A model generated the notes under the pieces. That model was not told the origin of the DNA, searched no databases, and saw only the letters and a program-made list of their open reading frames with translations. From contig NZ_JH976537.1 in NCBI RefSeq assembly GCF_000309385.1, positions 5,648,360-5,712,359 on the forward strand: a DNA stretch of 64,000 bases. Direction: 5' to 3'. Source of the DNA: Nodosilinea nodulosa PCC 7104 (GTDB lineage Bacteria > Cyanobacteriota > Cyanobacteriia > Phormidesmidales > Phormidesmidaceae). This document shows positions 1 to 18,911 of this stretch, in pieces; positions within the stretch are counted from its first letter, which is position 1, and every line of letters begins with the position of its first letter. Position numbers and translations under genes: made by a program.

Positions 1-1383
1 CAATGGCTGTACACGACCAGTGGTGAGGCGCTCTTATCCTTGTTCGGGCAGTTGGTTGAAACTGAAGCTCGCCAAAATGGTGGGCAAGCTATTCGAGCTG
101 CCATTTTGTTGGCTGCCGCCGATCCCAACGGGCTTTCACTGCTCAACATCATCCGTCACTACCCGACCCGCAAGCTACGATTGGATCTGCGACAAATTCA
201 GGCTGTGGCCCAATCTGTCAATACCAGCCTGGAGACTACTGGTGAGTTGATCAGCGCTGTTGCCCAAGAGTCGCGGGCCACTGCCGCCGCGGCGCCAGCC
301 CTGGACTATAGCGCCCTGCCAACCCTAGGCGAAAACGGTCAGTTTGCGGTGGAGCAGCGATCGCTACTATTAAACGACAGCCAGCGAAATCGCACCTATC
401 CCGTTGACCTTTATCTACCCGCCGACATCGGTGCCATTCAAGGCCCCCTGCCGGTGATGATCCTGTCCCATGGCCTGGGTACTATCCGCAACCATCCAGA
501 AGCGGTCAATCTTGCTCGAGGGCTGGCATCAAATGGTTTTTTTGTGGCGATGCCAGAACACATTGGCAGCAACCAGACCTACCTAGAGGGTCTGGCACAG
601 GGCCTGTATCAGGAATTTTTTGACCCGATGGAATTTATTGATCGCCCGCTAGATATTCATTTTCTACTCGATACGCTAGAGCAGCTCAATGCGACTGAAT
701 TTCAGGGGCATCTTCAGTTAGATAACGTGGGTATCATGGGTCACTCGTTTGGTGGTTATACCGCGCTAGCAGCCGCAGGTGGCACCATTGATATGAATTA
801 TCTAGAGCAGCAATGTGATTTAGACGCGGATATTGGCTCAAATGCTATCAACATCGCACTTTTACTGACGTGCGGAACCCTAGAGCTAGCAGCGGTGCCC
901 AGTGCCATCCAACAATTAACCGACGGTAGTCTGACCGACGACCGCATCGGCTTTGTGTTCGCCCTCGCTCCAGTTAGCGGCCTCTTTGGCGAAACGGGGC
1001 TGAGCACTATTCAGATTCCAGTGGTACTCATGGGTGGAGAAACTGATATTGCGACTCCCGTTGCCCTAGAACAGGTGGTTGCCTTTGAGGCCCTGACGAC
1101 ACCAGAGCGCTACCTATATTTAGCCGAAAACATTTCTCATTCCACAGCGCTGACTCGATTAGTCCTCGATATCACTAACTCCAGTAACAATATCGTTGAG
1201 CTTTTTGAAGAAAATGAAGCCGTGTTTTCGAGCCTGCTGGCGTCCTTAGTCATTGCCCATGGAAAATTCTACCTACGCGATGATGAGTCGTATCGACCCT
1301 ATCTAACGTCTGCCTACGTTGAGGCCGTCAGTGTAGAGCCCATCAAACTTCATTTGATACGAACCTCAGCCGAAGGATTTTAG
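1..1383 (+). CDS. DUF1400-type alpha/beta hydrolase, 5' end outside window
   Basis: The reading frame is open from base 1, so the start lies upstream of the window; a TTG at 40 is only an internal codon. The N-terminal part (tryptophan-leucine-tyrosine, then a helical segment) resembles the DUF1400 domain that precedes cyanobacterial alpha/beta hydrolases. The hydrolase core shows an oxyanion-region His-Gly (SHGLGT), the nucleophile elbow GHSFGG near base 740, and a late His in ENISHS that could complete the triad. Family members are putative secreted lipases or esterases; the substrate is unknown. The stop TAG is at 1381-1383. Confidence 0.85.
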   Translation, partial: QWLYTTSGEALLSLFGQLVETEARQNGGQAIRAAILLAAADPNGLSLLNIIRHYPTRKLRLDLRQIQAVAQSVNTSLETTGELISAVAQESRATAAAAPALDYSALPTLGENGQFAVEQRSLLLNDSQRNRTYPVDLYLPADIGAIQGPLPVMILSHGLGTIRNHPEAVNLARGLASNGFFVAMPEHIGSNQTYLEGLAQGLYQEFFDPMEFIDRPLDIHFLLDTLEQLNATEFQGHLQLDNVGIMGHSFGGYTALAAAGGTIDMNYLEQQCDLDADIGSNAINIALLLTCGTLELAAVPSAIQQLTDGSLTDDRIGFVFALAPVSGLFGETGLSTIQIPVVLMGGETDIATPVALEQVVAFEALTTPERYLYLAENISHSTALTRLVLDITNSSNNIVELFEENEAVFSSLLASLVIAHGKFYLRDDESYRPYLTSAYVEAVSVEPIKLHLIRTSAEGF

Positions 1384-1656
1384 ACATAGGCCCAACGGGC
1401 CGAGTTGGCGACATCATAGGGGACGTTTATTTAGATAGAAGACTCTTAGGTCGATGGGAGATCGAGCTCCTCGCCAACCTCACGGGCACGTTCGACGAGT
1501 TCCACTATTAACGCTTCGCGGTCGGTCACTGTGCGAGCAGCGATTTCAGCATAGTCAGTGCCTGGAGTATGCTTGCGCCCCCAAACCCCACTGTGACAAC
1601 AATAGATGAGACAGCTTAGCCAGTCCCAATTAGAGTAGAAGGAACGGTTATCCCGC

Positions 1657-2100
1657 ATGTCAGACTCTATGCAATCGCAGCTCTTGAATCCTGAAAACAA
1701 TGGGAAAGCCGCCCGTCTAGATCCCGAAGTTCTAGAAAAACCTGTCCGCCGTCAATTCACCGCCGCTTATAAGCTCGAGATGGTACAAGCTGCAGATCGG
1801 TGCACTGAGCTGGGTCAAATCGGGGCCTTACTGCGACGAGAAGGGCTGTACTCATCGCAGTTGAGTACCTGGCGCAACCAGCGACAACAGGGGCAACTGC
1901 AAGCGCTGGCCGATAATAAGCGGGGCTGCAAAGCCACAATTCCGCATCCGGTTCAACAAGAGCTGGCGCAATTGCGCCGAGAGAATCAACAGCTGCGCCA
2001 CAAAATGCAGCAGGCCGAACTGATCATCGATATCCAAAAAAAGACTTCGCAGTTAATGGGGATCTCTCTGAGTCCTATCCATTGCGACGAGCCCGACTGA
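1657..2100 (+). CDS. IS3-family transposase OrfA (helix-turn-helix subunit)
   Basis: The 147-residue protein has an N-terminal helix-turn-helix (FTAAYKLEMVQ...GQIGALLRREG...STWRNQ) followed by a leucine-zipper-like segment rich in Gln and Glu (LRRENQQLRHKMQQAELI), the normal OrfA design for IS-end recognition. A slippery A AAA AAG at 2037-2043 lies in the right register for a -1 shift into the overlapping OrfB frame, which would make the OrfAB fusion transposase. Without the shift translation ends at 2098-2100. Confidence 0.9.
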   Translation: MSDSMQSQLLNPENNGKAARLDPEVLEKPVRRQFTAAYKLEMVQAADRCTELGQIGALLRREGLYSSQLSTWRNQRQQGQLQALADNKRGCKATIPHPVQQELAQLRRENQQLRHKMQQAELIIDIQKKTSQLMGISLSPIHCDEPD

Positions 2101-3110
2101 ACCGTGCTGCTGAGACCCTGGCGCTCGACGTGGGCGTTGCCCCGGCTTGCCTGGCGTTAGGCGTCAGTCGAGCCACCCTGTATCGTCAGCGTAGCCCGTC
2201 CACGCCGTCTGCCCCTAAGGTTCGACCTAAACCGCAGCGCTCCCTGTCTGTGGCAGAACAGCAGCAGGTGTTAGCCTGGCTCAATTCAGAACGATTTATG
2301 GATTGTTCGGTGGCTGAGGTCTACGCCACGCTCTTGGATGAAGGCATCTACCTCTGTTCGATACGGACCATGTATCGACTGTTGGCCGCTGATGGCGAGA
2401 CCCAAGACCGGCGTCAGCAACGCCAGCATCCCACGTATACCAAGCCAGAACTGTTGGCCACCGCGCCCAATCAACTCTGGTCTTGGGACATCACAAAGCT
2501 CCGTAGCCACCAAAAATGGACGTACTTTCAGCTCTATGTGATTCTCGATGTCTTCAGTCGCTATGTCGTCGGCTGGATGGTGGCGCATCGCGAATCGGGC
2601 GCGTTGGCCGAGCGCTTGATTCGACTCACCTGTCAGAAGCAGGCCATTGAGCCGGGGCAGTTGACGCTCCATGCTGACCGGGGTACGTCAATGACCTCGA
2701 AGACGGTCGCGTTCCTGCTCTCTGATCTGGGCGTGACCAAGAGCCATAGCCGTCCCCAGGTGTCCAATGACAATCCGTTTTCGGAGGCGCAATTCAAAAC
2801 CTTGAAATATCAGCCCACGTTTCCCACACAGTTTGGCTGTATCGAAGATGCCAGGGCCTTTTGCCAACACTTCTTTGCCTGGTATAACCAAGTCCATCAT
2901 CATGGGGGCATTGGTCTATTGACCCCTGAGGTGATGCATTCAGGCCAAGCTGACGTCGTCACTCAGCAACGACAAGCCGTTTTAAACACGGCTTATCTCG
3001 CCCATCCTGAGCGCTTTGTCCATCATCCGCCCACTCCACCCGTGGTGCCCAATGCCGTTTGGATCAATCCACCGATAGCAGCTCCTAACAGCCAGGCGGT
3101 TCCACACTAA
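2082..3110 (+). CDS. IS3-family transposase OrfB (DDE integrase core)
   Basis: This frame is -1 relative to OrfA and open from the slippery site at about 2040, so the active enzyme is probably the OrfAB fusion. The rve-type catalytic core is visible: WSWDIT (first Asp), HADRG (second Asp) and NPFSEAQFKTLKY (Glu, with the K/R of the IS3 signature). The C-terminal part keeps the HHHGGIGLLTPE motif normal for the family. No internal stop or frameshift is seen. Confidence 0.92.
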   Translation: MRRARLNRAAETLALDVGVAPACLALGVSRATLYRQRSPSTPSAPKVRPKPQRSLSVAEQQQVLAWLNSERFMDCSVAEVYATLLDEGIYLCSIRTMYRLLAADGETQDRRQQRQHPTYTKPELLATAPNQLWSWDITKLRSHQKWTYFQLYVILDVFSRYVVGWMVAHRESGALAERLIRLTCQKQAIEPGQLTLHADRGTSMTSKTVAFLLSDLGVTKSHSRPQVSNDNPFSEAQFKTLKYQPTFPTQFGCIEDARAFCQHFFAWYNQVHHHGGIGLLTPEVMHSGQADVVTQQRQAVLNTAYLAHPERFVHHPPTPPVVPNAVWINPPIAAPNSQAVPH

Positions 3111-3489
3111 TTTGTTTTTAGTTTCTGTCTCATTTTTGTTGACACATTCCGAACCAGCAAATCGATCAGGACTGGAACTAGCTCCAGGCCGCTATCGGTA
3201 GGAACATACTTACGACTGCGACCATCGCGAGGATCCCGTCGCTGCTTTAGTACGCCAGCCTCGATCAATCGCTCCAGTCGATCCGTCAGGGTATTCGTGG
3301 CGATGCCTTCGTCAGCGGCAATTTCTGAGAACGCACGGCGTTGCCCCAACAGCACATCTCGCAGCACCACCAGCGTCCATCGGTCTCCTAATAGATCTAG
3401 AGCGCAGGCAATCGGGCAGTTTGAGCGCGGCGTGTCTTTGCCAGACGGCATGAATCGCTGATCGCTGATGGTTCAAGGGCTTCAGAATT

Positions 3490-3560
3490 ATAGCTTGCAT
3501 TTTGCCAGTCAAAAAGTTACTCTTGTTTTGCAAGTTAAATGACTTGTGTTTTGCTACTGT
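3490..3560. promoter_or_regulatory. Operator-like repeats between the broken hxlR gene and the isochorismatase gene
   Basis: Three similar words lie in the divergent promoter region: CTTGCATTTTGCCAG (from 3494), CTTGTTTTGCAAG (3522-3534) and CTTGTGTTTTGCTAC (from 3543). The same three-copy arrangement at equivalent spacing precedes the intact paralogue at 6148-6213, while the flanks have drifted. Conservation in a duplicated regulator-target pair suggests HxlR binding sites. This is inference; no core promoter is assigned. Confidence 0.5.
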
Positions 3561-3666
3561 GCGTCTACCCCTAATCGTGACGTCCTGCCTTGCTAGCTGA
3601 ACAGTCATGTTGTGAAACAAAACGTGCGGGACTTGCTCGCCTCACTACCCCGGAAAGGAACGATTC

Positions 3667-4302
3667 ATGGACGAAACCAAATATCCCGAGGGTAGCACCG
3701 CGCTACTCTTCATCGACCCCTACAACGACTTCCTTGCAGAGGAGGGCAAAATGTGGCCCCAGGTCGCTGAGGTGGCCCGGTCGGTCGACCTTCATGCCAA
3801 CCTGGCTCGGGTCCGTGCGGCTGTGCGCGAGGCCGGGATCCCGATCTTCATTCTGCCCCACCATCGGCACAAGCCGACGGATTTCGAGGGATGGGCGAAC
3901 CTGACACCCTCACAGCGTGCGGCGCACGAATACCAGTTGTTCGCCGTCGACAGCTGGGGCGGCAAGTGGTATCAGGGCTTCGGCCCCGAACCTGGCGACA
4001 TCGTCGTCAAGGAACACTGGGGTGCGTCCAGCTTCGCCAATACCGACCTGGATGTGCAGCTGCGCCAGCACGGTATCACCCATGTCATCTTCATCGGGAT
4101 GATTGCCAACACCTGTATCGAAACTACCGCGCGCTATGCGTCCGAACTCGGCTACCATGTGACGCTGGTACGCGATGCAACGGCGGCCATGTCGGCAGAA
4201 GCCATGCACGCCGCCCACGAAGTCAACGGCCCGACCTATGCGCACGCCATTCTCACCACGGCAGAGGTTGTTTCGAGACTGGTTAGTGAGGACGCCGCAT
4301 GA
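3667..4302 (+). CDS. Isochorismatase-family cysteine hydrolase
   Basis: The 211-residue protein has the family fold and a complete catalytic triad: D17 in LLFIDPYND, K115 in VVKEHWGASSF and C150 in ANTCIETT. Family members hydrolyse isochorismate, nicotinamide or related amides and N-carbamoyl compounds; the substrate here cannot be read from sequence. A GGAAAGGA Shine-Dalgarno sequence precedes the ATG. The stop overlaps the next start (ATGA at 4299), so the membrane protein downstream is co-translated. It is divergent from an HxlR-type regulator now broken by an IS, so it may be derepressed or de-activated. Confidence 0.9.
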   Translation: MDETKYPEGSTALLFIDPYNDFLAEEGKMWPQVAEVARSVDLHANLARVRAAVREAGIPIFILPHHRHKPTDFEGWANLTPSQRAAHEYQLFAVDSWGGKWYQGFGPEPGDIVVKEHWGASSFANTDLDVQLRQHGITHVIFIGMIANTCIETTARYASELGYHVTLVRDATAAMSAEAMHAAHEVNGPTYAHAILTTAEVVSRLVSEDAA

Positions 4303-4838
4303 TCTCGGGACATGCAGCAACGACGCTGGTGGCCAAACGCGCAGTGCCGGAAATGCCCTGGTGGCTTCTTCTTGTCAGTGCCTTTCTGATCGATATCGCG
4401 ATGTTCACTTTCGTCGCGCTCGGCATTGAGACAATGGCTCCTACGGGTGCCGACGGACCGACCCTGGCGAACGTAATAGTCGACATGACATTTAGTCACG
4501 ACCTGATCCCCCAGATTGGCTGGACATTGCTGGCCGGTGCGATCGCGTTCGCGGTGACGCGCCGTCGTGTGTTCGCGCTTACTGCCATGGCATTGTCGTT
4601 GGGCCATTGGCTGGCAGACCTGGTTACGGGCTACGAGCACCATGTCTTTGGCCCTGAAAGCTATTCCCTTGGGACCGACTGGTATCGCCTGAACCTGCCG
4701 GCGGCGCTGTCGTTCGAGGCCGCTCTTGGTATATTTTGCGTCTTTATCTTCACCCGCGGGAGATCATTCTCGCCCGGCGCACTGGCGGGACTCTACGGTC
4801 TGTTCGGTGTTTTCCCCTTCGCTTTCCTCTTCATCTGA
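4299..4838 (+). CDS. Small multi-pass membrane protein of unknown function
   Basis: The 179-residue protein shows about five hydrophobic spans (WWLLLVSAFLIDIAMFTFVALG, TLLAGAIAFAV, VFALTAMALSLGHWLADL, AALGIFCVFIFT, GLYGLFGVFPFAFLFI). Polar conserved-looking clusters sit between spans (SHDLIPQ, HWLADLVTGYEHH), which could bind metal. The start overlaps the isochorismatase stop by four bases, implying a shared transcript and linked role. I do not recognise the family with confidence. Confidence 0.75.
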   Translation: MISGHAATTLVAKRAVPEMPWWLLLVSAFLIDIAMFTFVALGIETMAPTGADGPTLANVIVDMTFSHDLIPQIGWTLLAGAIAFAVTRRRVFALTAMALSLGHWLADLVTGYEHHVFGPESYSLGTDWYRLNLPAALSFEAALGIFCVFIFTRGRSFSPGALAGLYGLFGVFPFAFLFI

Positions 4839-4985
4839 CGCCAAATCCAATCATCGTTCGGCGCAGGCCATCCGCCTGAGAAAGCGAAAGCACTCCAAAA
4901 TTCCTTGCATACGACAAGCAATCGTGTGTATTACTGCTTTTGATCCGCAAGCGATTGTTCAACCAACAAAAACAGGAGCCATTTC

Positions 4986-5510
4986 ATGCTTACAGTCGGA
5001 GAAGCCACCGCAAAAGCCATCATTAACGCACCTATAGAGTCTATAAATTTAGGTGAATGGATGTTTACGATTAGTTCAGAAGAATATGCGGCCTGCGCCG
5101 AGGGGCACCAAAGTGCAGCGCAAGGGAAATTGGTTTCCGGAAAAAGGTTCTCGGTAAACTTAGAAACCGTGGGCGGCATGTTCATGGTTCAACACTACAT
5201 CGAGACGGTTTCGGAAAGAGATCATGTCGTGGGCTTTTCACCCAATAGCGTTTTTTGGCTAAATGATACAGACTACGTCTTTTCACAAATTACTTGGGAG
5301 CTAAAGGTGGCGCAACTTGATGAGAATCGCTGTGAGCTTACTTGCAGCGTTCTCTCGAAAAGTGAGAACGAAGCGTTCGTAACCGCACTAAACGAGGCAA
5401 TGAAAGATGTGCCGCCAGAGAACACTCCCCTTCAGCAACACATCAACGAAGAAACCCCGTTGTTTGGGAAAGACATCGAACGTAAGGCATTGGCTGGAGT
5501 TTGGGTTTGA
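4986..5510 (+). CDS. Conserved hypothetical protein, possibly SRPBCC-like
   Basis: The start is supported by AGGAG at 4974-4978, eight bases before the ATG. The 174-residue protein begins with a segment resembling SRPBCC/Bet v1-type ligand-binding folds (AIINAPIESINLGEWMF, then alternating strands such as KRFSVNLETVGGMFMVQHYIE and DYVFSQITWELKVAQ). No catalytic motif is visible and it has no signal peptide. The fold call is weak. It sits alone between the isochorismatase pair and the second hxlR gene. Confidence 0.6.
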   Translation: MLTVGEATAKAIINAPIESINLGEWMFTISSEEYAACAEGHQSAAQGKLVSGKRFSVNLETVGGMFMVQHYIETVSERDHVVGFSPNSVFWLNDTDYVFSQITWELKVAQLDENRCELTCSVLSKSENEAFVTALNEAMKDVPPENTPLQQHINEETPLFGKDIERKALAGVWV

Positions 5511-5690
5511 AGTAGGGTTTTCCAGGGTCTGGATCGCCCTTGGCGCACCTGAAGTGCTCGCGAATCACACCAATTTCTTCAACTACCAATCTACAAAATC
5601 AAAGAAATGCCATGCAAGTTCTCATGATTGTTCGCTTGACCAGCTCATCGAAATAGTGAGCGATGAAAGCCAACATCATATCCATTCCTG

Positions 5691-6107
5691 CTAGTCGTCA
5701 GAATCGCGGGCACGTTCGACAAGTTCTGCCAGTAAAGCATCGCGATCGCCCACGGCACGGGCCAAAAGTTCGGCAGGAACAGTCCTCGACATGTACTTAT
5801 TCCCCCAGACCATCAGCTCGATTAGTACCGGAATCAGTTCTAGACCGCTCTCGGTTGGTACATATCGACGACTGCGGCCATCGCGGGGATCTCTTCGCCG
5901 CTCAAGTACGCCAGCCTCGATCAATCGCTCCAGTCGATCGGTCAGGGTATTCGTGGCGATGCCTTCGTCAGCGGCAATTTCTGAAAACGTGCGGCGCTGC
6001 CCCAAAAGCACATCGCGCAGCACCACCAGCGTCCATCGGTCTCCTAATAGATCTAGAGCGCAGGCAATCGGGCAGTTTGAGCGCGGCATGTCTTTGCCAG
6101 ACGGCAT
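5691..6107 (-). CDS. HxlR-family transcriptional regulator (intact paralogue)
   Basis: The 138-residue winged-helix regulator starts MPSGKDMPRSNCPIACALD and contains the HxlR core (GDRWTLVVLRDVLLGQRR, NTLTDRLERLIEAGVL, RDPRDGRSRRYVPTESG). A single Cys near residue 13, shared with the broken paralogue, is at a position where some HxlR proteins sense redox or electrophiles. The gene and its upstream region are a duplicate of the IS-split copy at 1446-3451. It is divergent from the SDR at 6250, its probable target. Confidence 0.92.
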   Translation of the reverse strand: MPSGKDMPRSNCPIACALDLLGDRWTLVVLRDVLLGQRRTFSEIAADEGIATNTLTDRLERLIEAGVLERRRDPRDGRSRRYVPTESGLELIPVLIELMVWGNKYMSRTVPAELLARAVGDRDALLAELVERARDSDD

Positions 6108-6147
6108 AAATCGATGATCGCAAACAGTTCAAGGGCCCTAAATTATA

Positions 6148-6213
6148 GCTTGCATTTTGCCAGCCAAAACGTTACTCTTATTTCGCAAGTTAAATCACTT
6201 GTATTTTGCAAGC
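6148..6213. promoter_or_regulatory. Operator-like repeats between intact hxlR and the SDR gene
   Basis: Three related words occur: CTTGCATTTTGCCAG (from 6149), CTTATTTCGCAAG (6177-6189) and CTTGTATTTTGCAAG (6198-6212, an imperfect palindrome). They mirror the arrangement at 3490-3560. Probable autoregulatory and target operator of the HxlR protein. Confidence 0.5.
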
Positions 6214-6249
6214 TAACCAGACTGGCCATGACTGGCTGAGGAACTATCC

Positions 6250-6984
6250 ATGGATCTCAACGGAAAGCGTATCGTCATCACGGGCGGCGGTTCAGGGATT
6301 GGGTTGGCAATGGCGCGATCGCTCGCTTCTGAAGGTGCCCACGTGGTGATCACGGGCCGCGATCAGACGAAGCTAGCGGCGGCGGCTTCCCACCATGCCA
6401 ATATTTCGTCCCAGGTCTGCGATGTGGCTGACGAGGCGGCTGTTGTCGCCCTGCGCGACGCTATGGATGCGGCGGGCGGCACGGATATTTTGGTCAACAA
6501 TGCCGGGATCATGCACGCGTTTGATGTCACCCAGGGTTTCCCGCTGGAGAAACAGCTGCAGGAAATCGACATCGACGTGTCAGGCCCGGTGCGTCTGGTT
6601 CACCACTTTTTGCCTGGGATGCTGAAACGGGAGTCGGTGATTGTCAACGTCAGCTCCGGCTTAGCCTATGCGCCCTATGCTGCGGCCCCGGTTTACAGCG
6701 CGAGCAAAGCATTTTTGCACTCCTATACCCAAAGCCTGCGATCGCAACTGGCGAATACTTCTGTTCGGGTGGTGGAGCTGTTGCCGCCGGTCGTCGATAC
6801 TCCATTGGCGGCTGACCTCGATCCGTCATTCCCCCGCATATCGCCTGAAAAGTTAGTCGCAGCCCTGATCAAAGGGCTTAAAAACAATACTGACGAAATT
6901 GCTCCTGGCCAGTCAGCGCAGCTGAAGCTGATGAGTCGCCTAGCACCCGGATTGCTCTTTCAGCAAATGAATAAGAACGTCTAG
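6250..6984 (+). CDS. Short-chain dehydrogenase/reductase (classical SDR)
   Basis: The 244-residue protein has the Rossmann motif TGGGSGIG, the NNAG motif (ILVNNAGIMHAF), the catalytic Ser in NVSSGLAYA and YSASK, so all classical SDR residues are present. The C-terminal extension through SPEKLVAALIKGL resembles DltE-like SDRs. The substrate is unknown. It is divergent from the intact HxlR regulator across a 142-bp operator-bearing gap and is likely induced by the ligand that regulator senses. Confidence 0.92.
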   Translation: MDLNGKRIVITGGGSGIGLAMARSLASEGAHVVITGRDQTKLAAAASHHANISSQVCDVADEAAVVALRDAMDAAGGTDILVNNAGIMHAFDVTQGFPLEKQLQEIDIDVSGPVRLVHHFLPGMLKRESVIVNVSSGLAYAPYAAAPVYSASKAFLHSYTQSLRSQLANTSVRVVELLPPVVDTPLAADLDPSFPRISPEKLVAALIKGLKNNTDEIAPGQSAQLKLMSRLAPGLLFQQMNKNV

Positions 6985-7140
6985 AGCTAATGATTCGGAT
7001 GCATCTAAAGGTTAGGGGACACTGCTAAAACTTGCGATCCCTCAGTCGTTGCATAGGCCTAACGATTCATTTAGGGCAGCGCAAGATGAAATATTCAGTC
7101 ATCTGACTCGATACCGATAACTTAAGCACGGAGATAGTAA

Positions 7141-17771: not shown

Positions 17772-18911
17772 CTATTCTAGTGTTTGGATAATGACCTCTT
17801 CGCCCAAGCCAAAAGACAGAGTCATCCCAGCCCCACTCAAGCCATTCACGATAGTGACTCCCACTTCGGGGTGGGCAATGAATTCGGTTTTGCCCGGTAG
17901 TTTGGCGTAAATACCGTGCCAGGTGGCGGCAATATCCAGACAAGGAACCTGAGCGAAACCTCGCAGATAGCTCAGCACAAATTGATTGATGTCAGCCCGA
18001 TCAAACGGGTCGAAGGTGAGGCCGTATTCGTGCGAGTCGCCTAAAATCAATTCGCCCAGACCGTTTTGAGACATCATGACGTGAATGTGCCGGTCCACGG
18101 CAAAAGGGAGTTGGGCGCTGAACCGCTGTTTTAAGGCAGGCAGTGATGGACAGTCCGCGAAGGCGGTGTAGTGAGTGAGGGTGAGCCCACCGCAGAGGGC
18201 CGGGCCAATGCGATGCCCCTTTGGTTGGGAGGCGGTGCGCATCATCTGCAGTTTAGATTTGGTGATGCCGCTACTCTGGTAAAGGCTGGGGTATAGCGTC
18301 TCAAAATCAGCCCCGGAGCACACGAAGATATGGTCTGCACTCCAGGTTTCGCCATTCACGGTGAGCTGGGGATAGCTGATTTCGGTAACCGTTGAGCCAA
18401 AGTGAAAATCTACCTCGAAGTCAGATTGAAGGACCTTGGGTAGGGCGGCGATCGCCTCTCTCGGATCAACAATCACCTCCGTATCGCTCCACAACGCCCC
18501 TAGTAACCCGTCAGTTACCGCAGCAGAGCTTTTCATAGCCGTTTCATCGGCGGTCAACCGCTGCACTCCGTAGCCTGCAGGTTTTGCAATATCCACAAAT
18601 TCCTCAATCACGGCTAGTTCATCGGGGTGGTAGGCCAGGTGCAGCGACCCGACCGGATCACAAAAAAAGCCGCCCCGCGCTGCCATCTCTAGCCAAATCT
18701 CGCGCGATCGCATCGCCCGATTGTACAGGGGGCCGGGCGGCTGTCCAATCGGCCACACCATACCAAAGTTGCGAATAGACGCCCCGACAGCGCGATCGCT
18801 GCGCTCGAATACGGTCACTTGATGGCCCCGGCGGGCAGCAGCTAGCGCATGGGCTATGCCCACAATCCCGGCTCCAACAACGGCAATTTCGGTAGATTTT
18901 GTCTCGGTCAT
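17772..18911 (-). CDS. FAD-dependent oxidoreductase of the phosphonate-linked TIGR03364 type
   Basis: The 379-residue DAO-fold enzyme begins with the dinucleotide motif IAVVGAGIVGIAHALAAARRG and an FAD-ribose Glu (VTVFERS). The pattern ASIRNFGMVWPIGQPPG and a C-terminal G-G loop (TIVNGLSGAGMTLSFGLGEEV) are typical of glycine-oxidase-like amine oxidases. In family context this group is encoded beside phosphonate genes and can oxidise aminoethylphosphonates to phosphonoacetaldehyde. It starts three bases after the stop of the PhnX-like gene, last in a five-gene operon. Confidence 0.85.
   Translation of the reverse strand: MTETKSTEIAVVGAGIVGIAHALAAARRGHQVTVFERSDRAVGASIRNFGMVWPIGQPPGPLYNRAMRSREIWLEMAARGGFFCDPVGSLHLAYHPDELAVIEEFVDIAKPAGYGVQRLTADETAMKSSAAVTDGLLGALWSDTEVIVDPREAIAALPKVLQSDFEVDFHFGSTVTEISYPQLTVNGETWSADHIFVCSGADFETLYPSLYQSSGITKSKLQMMRTASQPKGHRIGPALCGGLTLTHYTAFADCPSLPALKQRFSAQLPFAVDRHIHVMMSQNGLGELILGDSHEYGLTFDPFDRADINQFVLSYLRGFAQVPCLDIAATWHGIYAKLPGKTEFIAHPEVGVTIVNGLSGAGMTLSFGLGEEVIIQTLE

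Follow-up and report, generated by a model that had tools for sequence, protein, structure and literature searches.

Gene content of the locus

The window analyzed here is the whole 64,000-nucleotide stretch from Nodosilinea nodulosa PCC 7104. Positions 1587 to 3151 hold an intact-looking 1,565-bp element of the IS3 family. It lies inside hxlR1, an HxlR-type regulator gene that runs on the minus strand from 3451 to 1446 (Table 1). Three hxlR paralogues occur within about 9 kb. HxlR2 alone is intact, HxlR1 is split by the element, and HxlR3 contains an internal stop. Each is paired with a divergent gene. HxlR3 faces a DUF1400 hydrolase gene, HxlR1 an isochorismatase-like gene, and HxlR2 an SDR gene. 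The DUF1400 gene is cut at the window start and is whole in the preceding stretch (L019, 17533 to 19281).

Table 1. Features of the hxlR locus (window coordinates unless L019 is named)
Feature	Position	Strand	Remarks
HxlR3 gene	L019 16934-17336, start 17336	-	Upstream of the window; 68% to HxlR2; one internal TAA
hxlR1 3' part, last 45 codons and stop	1446-1583	-	
Target duplication AAC, left copy	1584-1586	+	
IS3-family element, 1,565 bp	1587-3151	+	Ends set by copies in the same genome
Left terminal inverted repeat, imperfect	1587-1614	+	
orfA, 147 aa	1657-2100	+	HTH_Tnp_1
A AAA AAG slippery heptamer	2037-2043	+	orfA frame; a -1 slip would give a 484-aa OrfAB
orfB part of OrfAB, DDE transposase	2043-3110	+	D-62-D-35-E; ORF listed from TTG at 2082
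Right terminal inverted repeat, imperfect	3125-3151	-	
Target duplication AAC, right copy	3152-3154	+	
hxlR1 5' part, codons 1-100	3152-3451	-	With 14 IS codons, an open 114-aa frame to 3107
Intergenic block, candidate operator/promoter	3508-3554		Common to hxlR1, hxlR2, hxlR3, and L059; core also in G079
Isochorismatase-like hydrolase gene	3667-4302	+	Divergent from hxlR1; Pfam Isochorismatase, 115.2 bits
179-aa hydrophobic protein gene	4299-4838	+	4-base overlap with hydrolase gene; no Pfam or NCBIfam match
hxlR2, intact paralogue, 138 aa	5691-6107	-	Pfam HxlR, 57.1 bits (cutoff, 20.8)
SDR-family gene	6250-6984	+	Divergent from hxlR2; Pfam

The IS3-family element

OrfB matched the NCBIfam model transpos_IS3 (NF033516) with 178.5 bits (cutoff, 160), and it also matched Pfam rve. 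The two frames overlap in the -1 register at an AnG slippery site, and the 484-aa fusion is predicted from this arrangement. A search for a stimulatory RNA fold 3' of the slippery site found none of significance (z, -0.14; 88 of 200 shuffles folded as well).

The left end read CCC followed by ACTG in all nine distinct left ends of the genome. The right end read ATTCCG in all 10 distinct right ends. The initial annotation had placed AACC on both flanks. The repeat is there, and its length is 3 bp: because the left ends are constant, one C of AACC was assigned to the element, as part of its CCC end, leaving AAC as the duplication. The joined empty site is identical under either length. Duplication size was counted at the seven sites of the genome, the window included, where both ends were located. 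Gaps interrupt four of these, whose ends were matched up by adjacency; a further five sites showing a single end were left out. The duplication was 3 bp at five sites, 4 bp at one, and absent at one. IS3-family elements typically duplicate 3 to 5 bp of target. Together with the imperfect terminal inverted repeats, duplications of 3 to 4 bp at six of seven sites agree with this pattern. The site that lacks a duplication (G000 C2:137676; L007 and L014) is gap broken and may come from a misjoin or from a pair that recombined.

The genome contains 18 matches to the element. Three are full length, and most others are broken by 100-N gaps. Set against the window copy, each of the other two full-length copies shows 2 changes in 1,565 bases (99.87% identity), at element positions 457 and 458. 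This sole difference falls in the slippery run (window positions 2036 to 2044), which reads A7-GAC in the window copy. Elsewhere the run reads A8-GC in six of the seven other copies read, two of them from other genomes, and A8-GAC in the seventh. The A7-GAC form is either a true variant or a homopolymer error. A partial copy with small indels lies at a gap about 2.8 kb past the window end (L020, 2819 to 3820), near a putative relaxase gene.

Relatives of the element with 91 to 94% identity were found in three genomes of the same genus (G005, G022, and G023). Overall, it was matched in 7 of 57 genomes, a figure that includes its own genome and three whose matches were weak or short, when at most six candidates per genome were scored. 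Plasmid relatives were found in 32 records. Their identity was 60 to 80% throughout, and none reached 80% coverage of the element.

Insertion site in hxlR1

The element splits the frame after codon 100, within the predicted fifth helix of HxlR1. When the flanks were joined by script, a single 145-aa HxlR frame resulted. The sequence contains both hxlR halves, the transposase ORFs, and direct repeats on the flanks, which bears out the IS3 insertion first proposed from the sequence. The restored residues LIDLLVWGRK had been said to match the paralogue. The likeness is approximate, with 7 of 10 residues shared with LIELMVWGNK of HxlR2.

The ancestral junction was inferred from uninterrupted homologues rather than from an empty site in a sister strain. 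The most informative of these is on a contig of Leptolyngbyaceae cyanobacterium RM1_1_2 (L059). Positions 2086 to 2487 of L059 align with window positions 3554 to 3153, and positions 2485 to 2592 align with window positions 1587 to 1480. The two alignments overlap by 3 bp, the size of the duplication. The hxlR homologues of genomes G079 and G082 are also uninterrupted at the junction; the G082 gene ends later, at a contig end. We conclude that an IS3-family element almost certainly inserted in hxlR1, duplicated AAC, and split the frame after codon 100. Chance does not appear to be a serious account of the whole signature, which combines a 3-bp repeat (1 in 64 alone) with shared ends, a restored frame, and an abutting homologue.

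Neither half of hxlR1 has acquired a further stop or frameshift, so that both remain open as originally described. The event had also been called recent. Given the near-identity of the copies and the open halves, this holds relative to the other copies; it does not carry over to an absolute date. The insertion would be one of numerous jumps made by an element that is active in this genome.

hxlR paralogues

HxlR2 lies 2.2 kb from hxlR1. The two proteins are 89% identical over residues 1 to 101 and identical over residues 41 to 68, a 28-residue DNA-binding stretch. At the DNA level, identity is 89% for the 5' part and drops to 64% for the 3' part; the corresponding dN/dS values, from a simple count, are 0.12 and 0.34. 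A smaller but similar drop, from 90.7% to 76.3%, separates HxlR2 from the L059 homologue, and both of these genes are uninterrupted. Faster evolution of the C terminus therefore accounts for part of the drop between HxlR1 and HxlR2. The remainder may be due to gene conversion of the 5' part.

Cys12 is invariant in the 16 aligned HxlR sequences, as the conserved N-terminal Cys. HxlR3 lacks this residue. At the codons where the element entered HxlR1, it carries a 9-nt deletion and then a TAA. This is either a coincidence or a hot spot.

Shared intergenic block

A block of about 60 bp recurs across three local intergenic regions and in L059, and its core precedes the hxlR gene of G079. Through it, the region upstream of the isochorismatase-like gene resembles HxlR2's own upstream region. 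The block is a candidate operator or promoter, judged from the sequence. Its copies are duplicates of one another, so that their likeness is not independent evidence for an operator. In G079, a 30-nt piece of the block lies 55 bp upstream of the isochorismatase gene, inverted relative to the window.

The exact pattern CTTGYRTTTTRCMAG occurs at four sites in the 6.89-Mb genome, all beside the three hxlR genes from which the pattern was drawn. Allowing one mismatch raised the number of sites to 7, compared with 5 for the reversed pattern used as control, so that this count says little. A palindromic operator of the form CTTG-N7-CAAG was rejected. Its exact sites cluster at the locus, but the one-mismatch count (7 against 5) hardly exceeds that of the control, and the motif is missing from contig C101 of G079; the sequence was retained as a shared block alone. 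The related form CTTG-N7-C[AC]AG was not found in that contig either.

A consensus promoter scan of positions 1300 to 7100 found no promoter-like site, against 3.5 in shuffled sequences. A TTGACA at 3139 to 3144 points outward from the element, yet the scan found no promoter, and an outward IS promoter for the isochorismatase gene was provisionally rejected. Transcription that reads through from the transposase strand could extend towards 3667.

Distribution among relatives

Relatives were sampled at one genome per species. DNA from positions 3152 to 6990 was compared with 63 genomes of the family, with four first-look candidates per genome scored. None of the 25 same-genus genomes matched, an absence that is not absolute at this depth. 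The HxlR2 protein found some HxlR-like match in 24 of these 25 genomes; the best was 37% identical, which marks a different gene. Parts of the locus were found in G079, G082, and G085, which belong to other genera of the family. A contig scan with HxlR2 gave at least 13 loci, and among the matches listed only L059 was close (89%). The locus is accessory, and its distribution perhaps reflects horizontal movement within the family.

Contig C101 of G079 contains a rearranged version of the window cluster (L136, 7888 to 10502). Its isochorismatase is 87% identical to that of the window and has no adjacent hxlR. One close HxlR match was found in G079, beside the SDR gene; the other match is 40% identical. 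A 71-nt piece resembling the SDR start lies past the isochorismatase gene of C101. An IS left end like that of the window is found near the end of the contig (15062 to 15254).

Consequences for regulation

The locus as a whole is probably best explained by an IS insertion followed by cover of HxlR1 by HxlR2. Loss, retention, and replacement by HxlR2 were weighed for control of the isochorismatase-like gene, and replacement appears most likely. HxlR2 would read the operator before the isochorismatase gene, and the cell would have borne the loss of HxlR1 owing to at least partial redundancy among the paralogues. Such partial redundancy, with HxlR2 standing in for HxlR1, is a reading that we favor by a small measure. 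The C-terminal parts of the two are only 64% identical in DNA, so that their signals could differ.

The initial annotation had suggested that the isochorismatase-like gene may have lost its regulator. In its strong form, this reading has the insertion destroying the cognate regulator and leaving the isochorismatase operon deregulated. hxlR1 is the divergent neighbor of the operon, and its C-terminal part differs from that of HxlR2. The cut removes that part together with W101, a residue that 15 of the 16 aligned sequences have and only the truncated one lacks. Against this, HxlR2 is intact and retains the same DNA-binding stretch and the shared upstream block. The orthologous isochorismatase of G079 does without an adjacent hxlR, and the truncated HxlR1 still scores 41 bits to Pfam HxlR (cutoff, 20.8). 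We consider deregulation unlikely, and the regulatory consequence of the insertion is probably smaller than first proposed. We found no literature on an HxlR regulator paired with a divergently placed isochorismatase gene.

It is less likely still that the 114-aa HxlR1, with 100 native and 14 IS-encoded residues, is a working regulator of YodB size or a dominant-negative partner of HxlR2. The score to Pfam HxlR and the length of the YodB chains in PDB (110 residues) are consistent with a functional product. In the AlphaFold2 model the winged helix is kept, and helix 5 extends into the IS residues (92 to 113; mean pLDDT, 84.6), compared with residues 92 to 106 in HxlR2, a difference that leans on the alignment. 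The model is of a monomer only, and the alignment imposes the family fold. Furthermore, the part of the HxlR literature consulted assigns dimerization to helices 1 and 5 (PMC7835342), and helix 5 is altered here from W101 on. A more elaborate arrangement is very improbable. It would make one local regulon of three hxlR-target units with a shared operator and expendable single copies, in which the 114-aa HxlR1, its dimerization helix completed by IS residues, tunes or poisons HxlR2.

Two further explanations concern the junction itself, and both are extremely unlikely. Assembly error could be suspected since many element copies end at 100-N gaps and window positions 1 to 2002 are exactly repeated just ahead of the window; however, the window contains no N, both contig ends carry the left junction, and misjoining would not yield a duplication and a restored frame. 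Equally implausibly, the halves were never one gene and came together when IS copies lying in two hxlR paralogues recombined, as the drop in DNA identity between HxlR1 and HxlR2 might suggest; AAC is nevertheless identical on both sides, the halves abut without a gap on L059, and the uninterrupted HxlR2 and L059 genes show a drop of their own.

The repeat of positions 1 to 2002 is found at positions 17899 to 19900 of L019 with 100% identity, just ahead of a 100-N gap that directly precedes the window. It most likely represents two overlapping contig ends left unmerged; the alternative is a tandem duplication.

The locus is thus an ordinary IS3-family insertion in an apparently partly redundant regulator cluster and a new instance of a known phenomenon. 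It cautions against inferring loss of control whenever an IS interrupts a regulator next to an operon, since paralogues that share the upstream block may persist. If the cross-regulation is true, the cluster would offer a small natural example of redundant regulators decaying in three steps (intact, IS split, and stop).

Comparison with known systems

The element resembles the IS3 family in its two overlapping frames, AnG run, DDE transposase, imperfect inverted repeats, and duplications of 3 to 4 bp. Ends of the form 5'-TG...CA-3' were treated as common in the family and not as defining. The element instead reads CCC and CGG, constant over the nine left and 10 right ends. In this it is unlike ISSau2, whose ends are given as 5'-TG...CA-3' in the portion of the report consulted (PMC4433286).

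The regulators resemble the HxlR/MarR-DUF24 family (HxlR, YodB, and HypR) in their Pfam HxlR match and in Cys12, which occupies the N-terminal place of the sensing Cys in the sections consulted of two reports (PMC7835342 and PMC6943732). They differ from YodB in a longer C terminus (138 to 145 aa), and HxlR3 departs from the family in lacking the Cys.

Zhou et al. (2008) describe, in the part consulted, cyanobacterial IS with highly similar copies per genome and an enrichment of genes for DNA-binding factors beside them (PMC2246112). The present element is like these recently active IS in having highly similar copies within its own genome. It differs in that a single locus is described here, compared with an enrichment among neighbor genes there.
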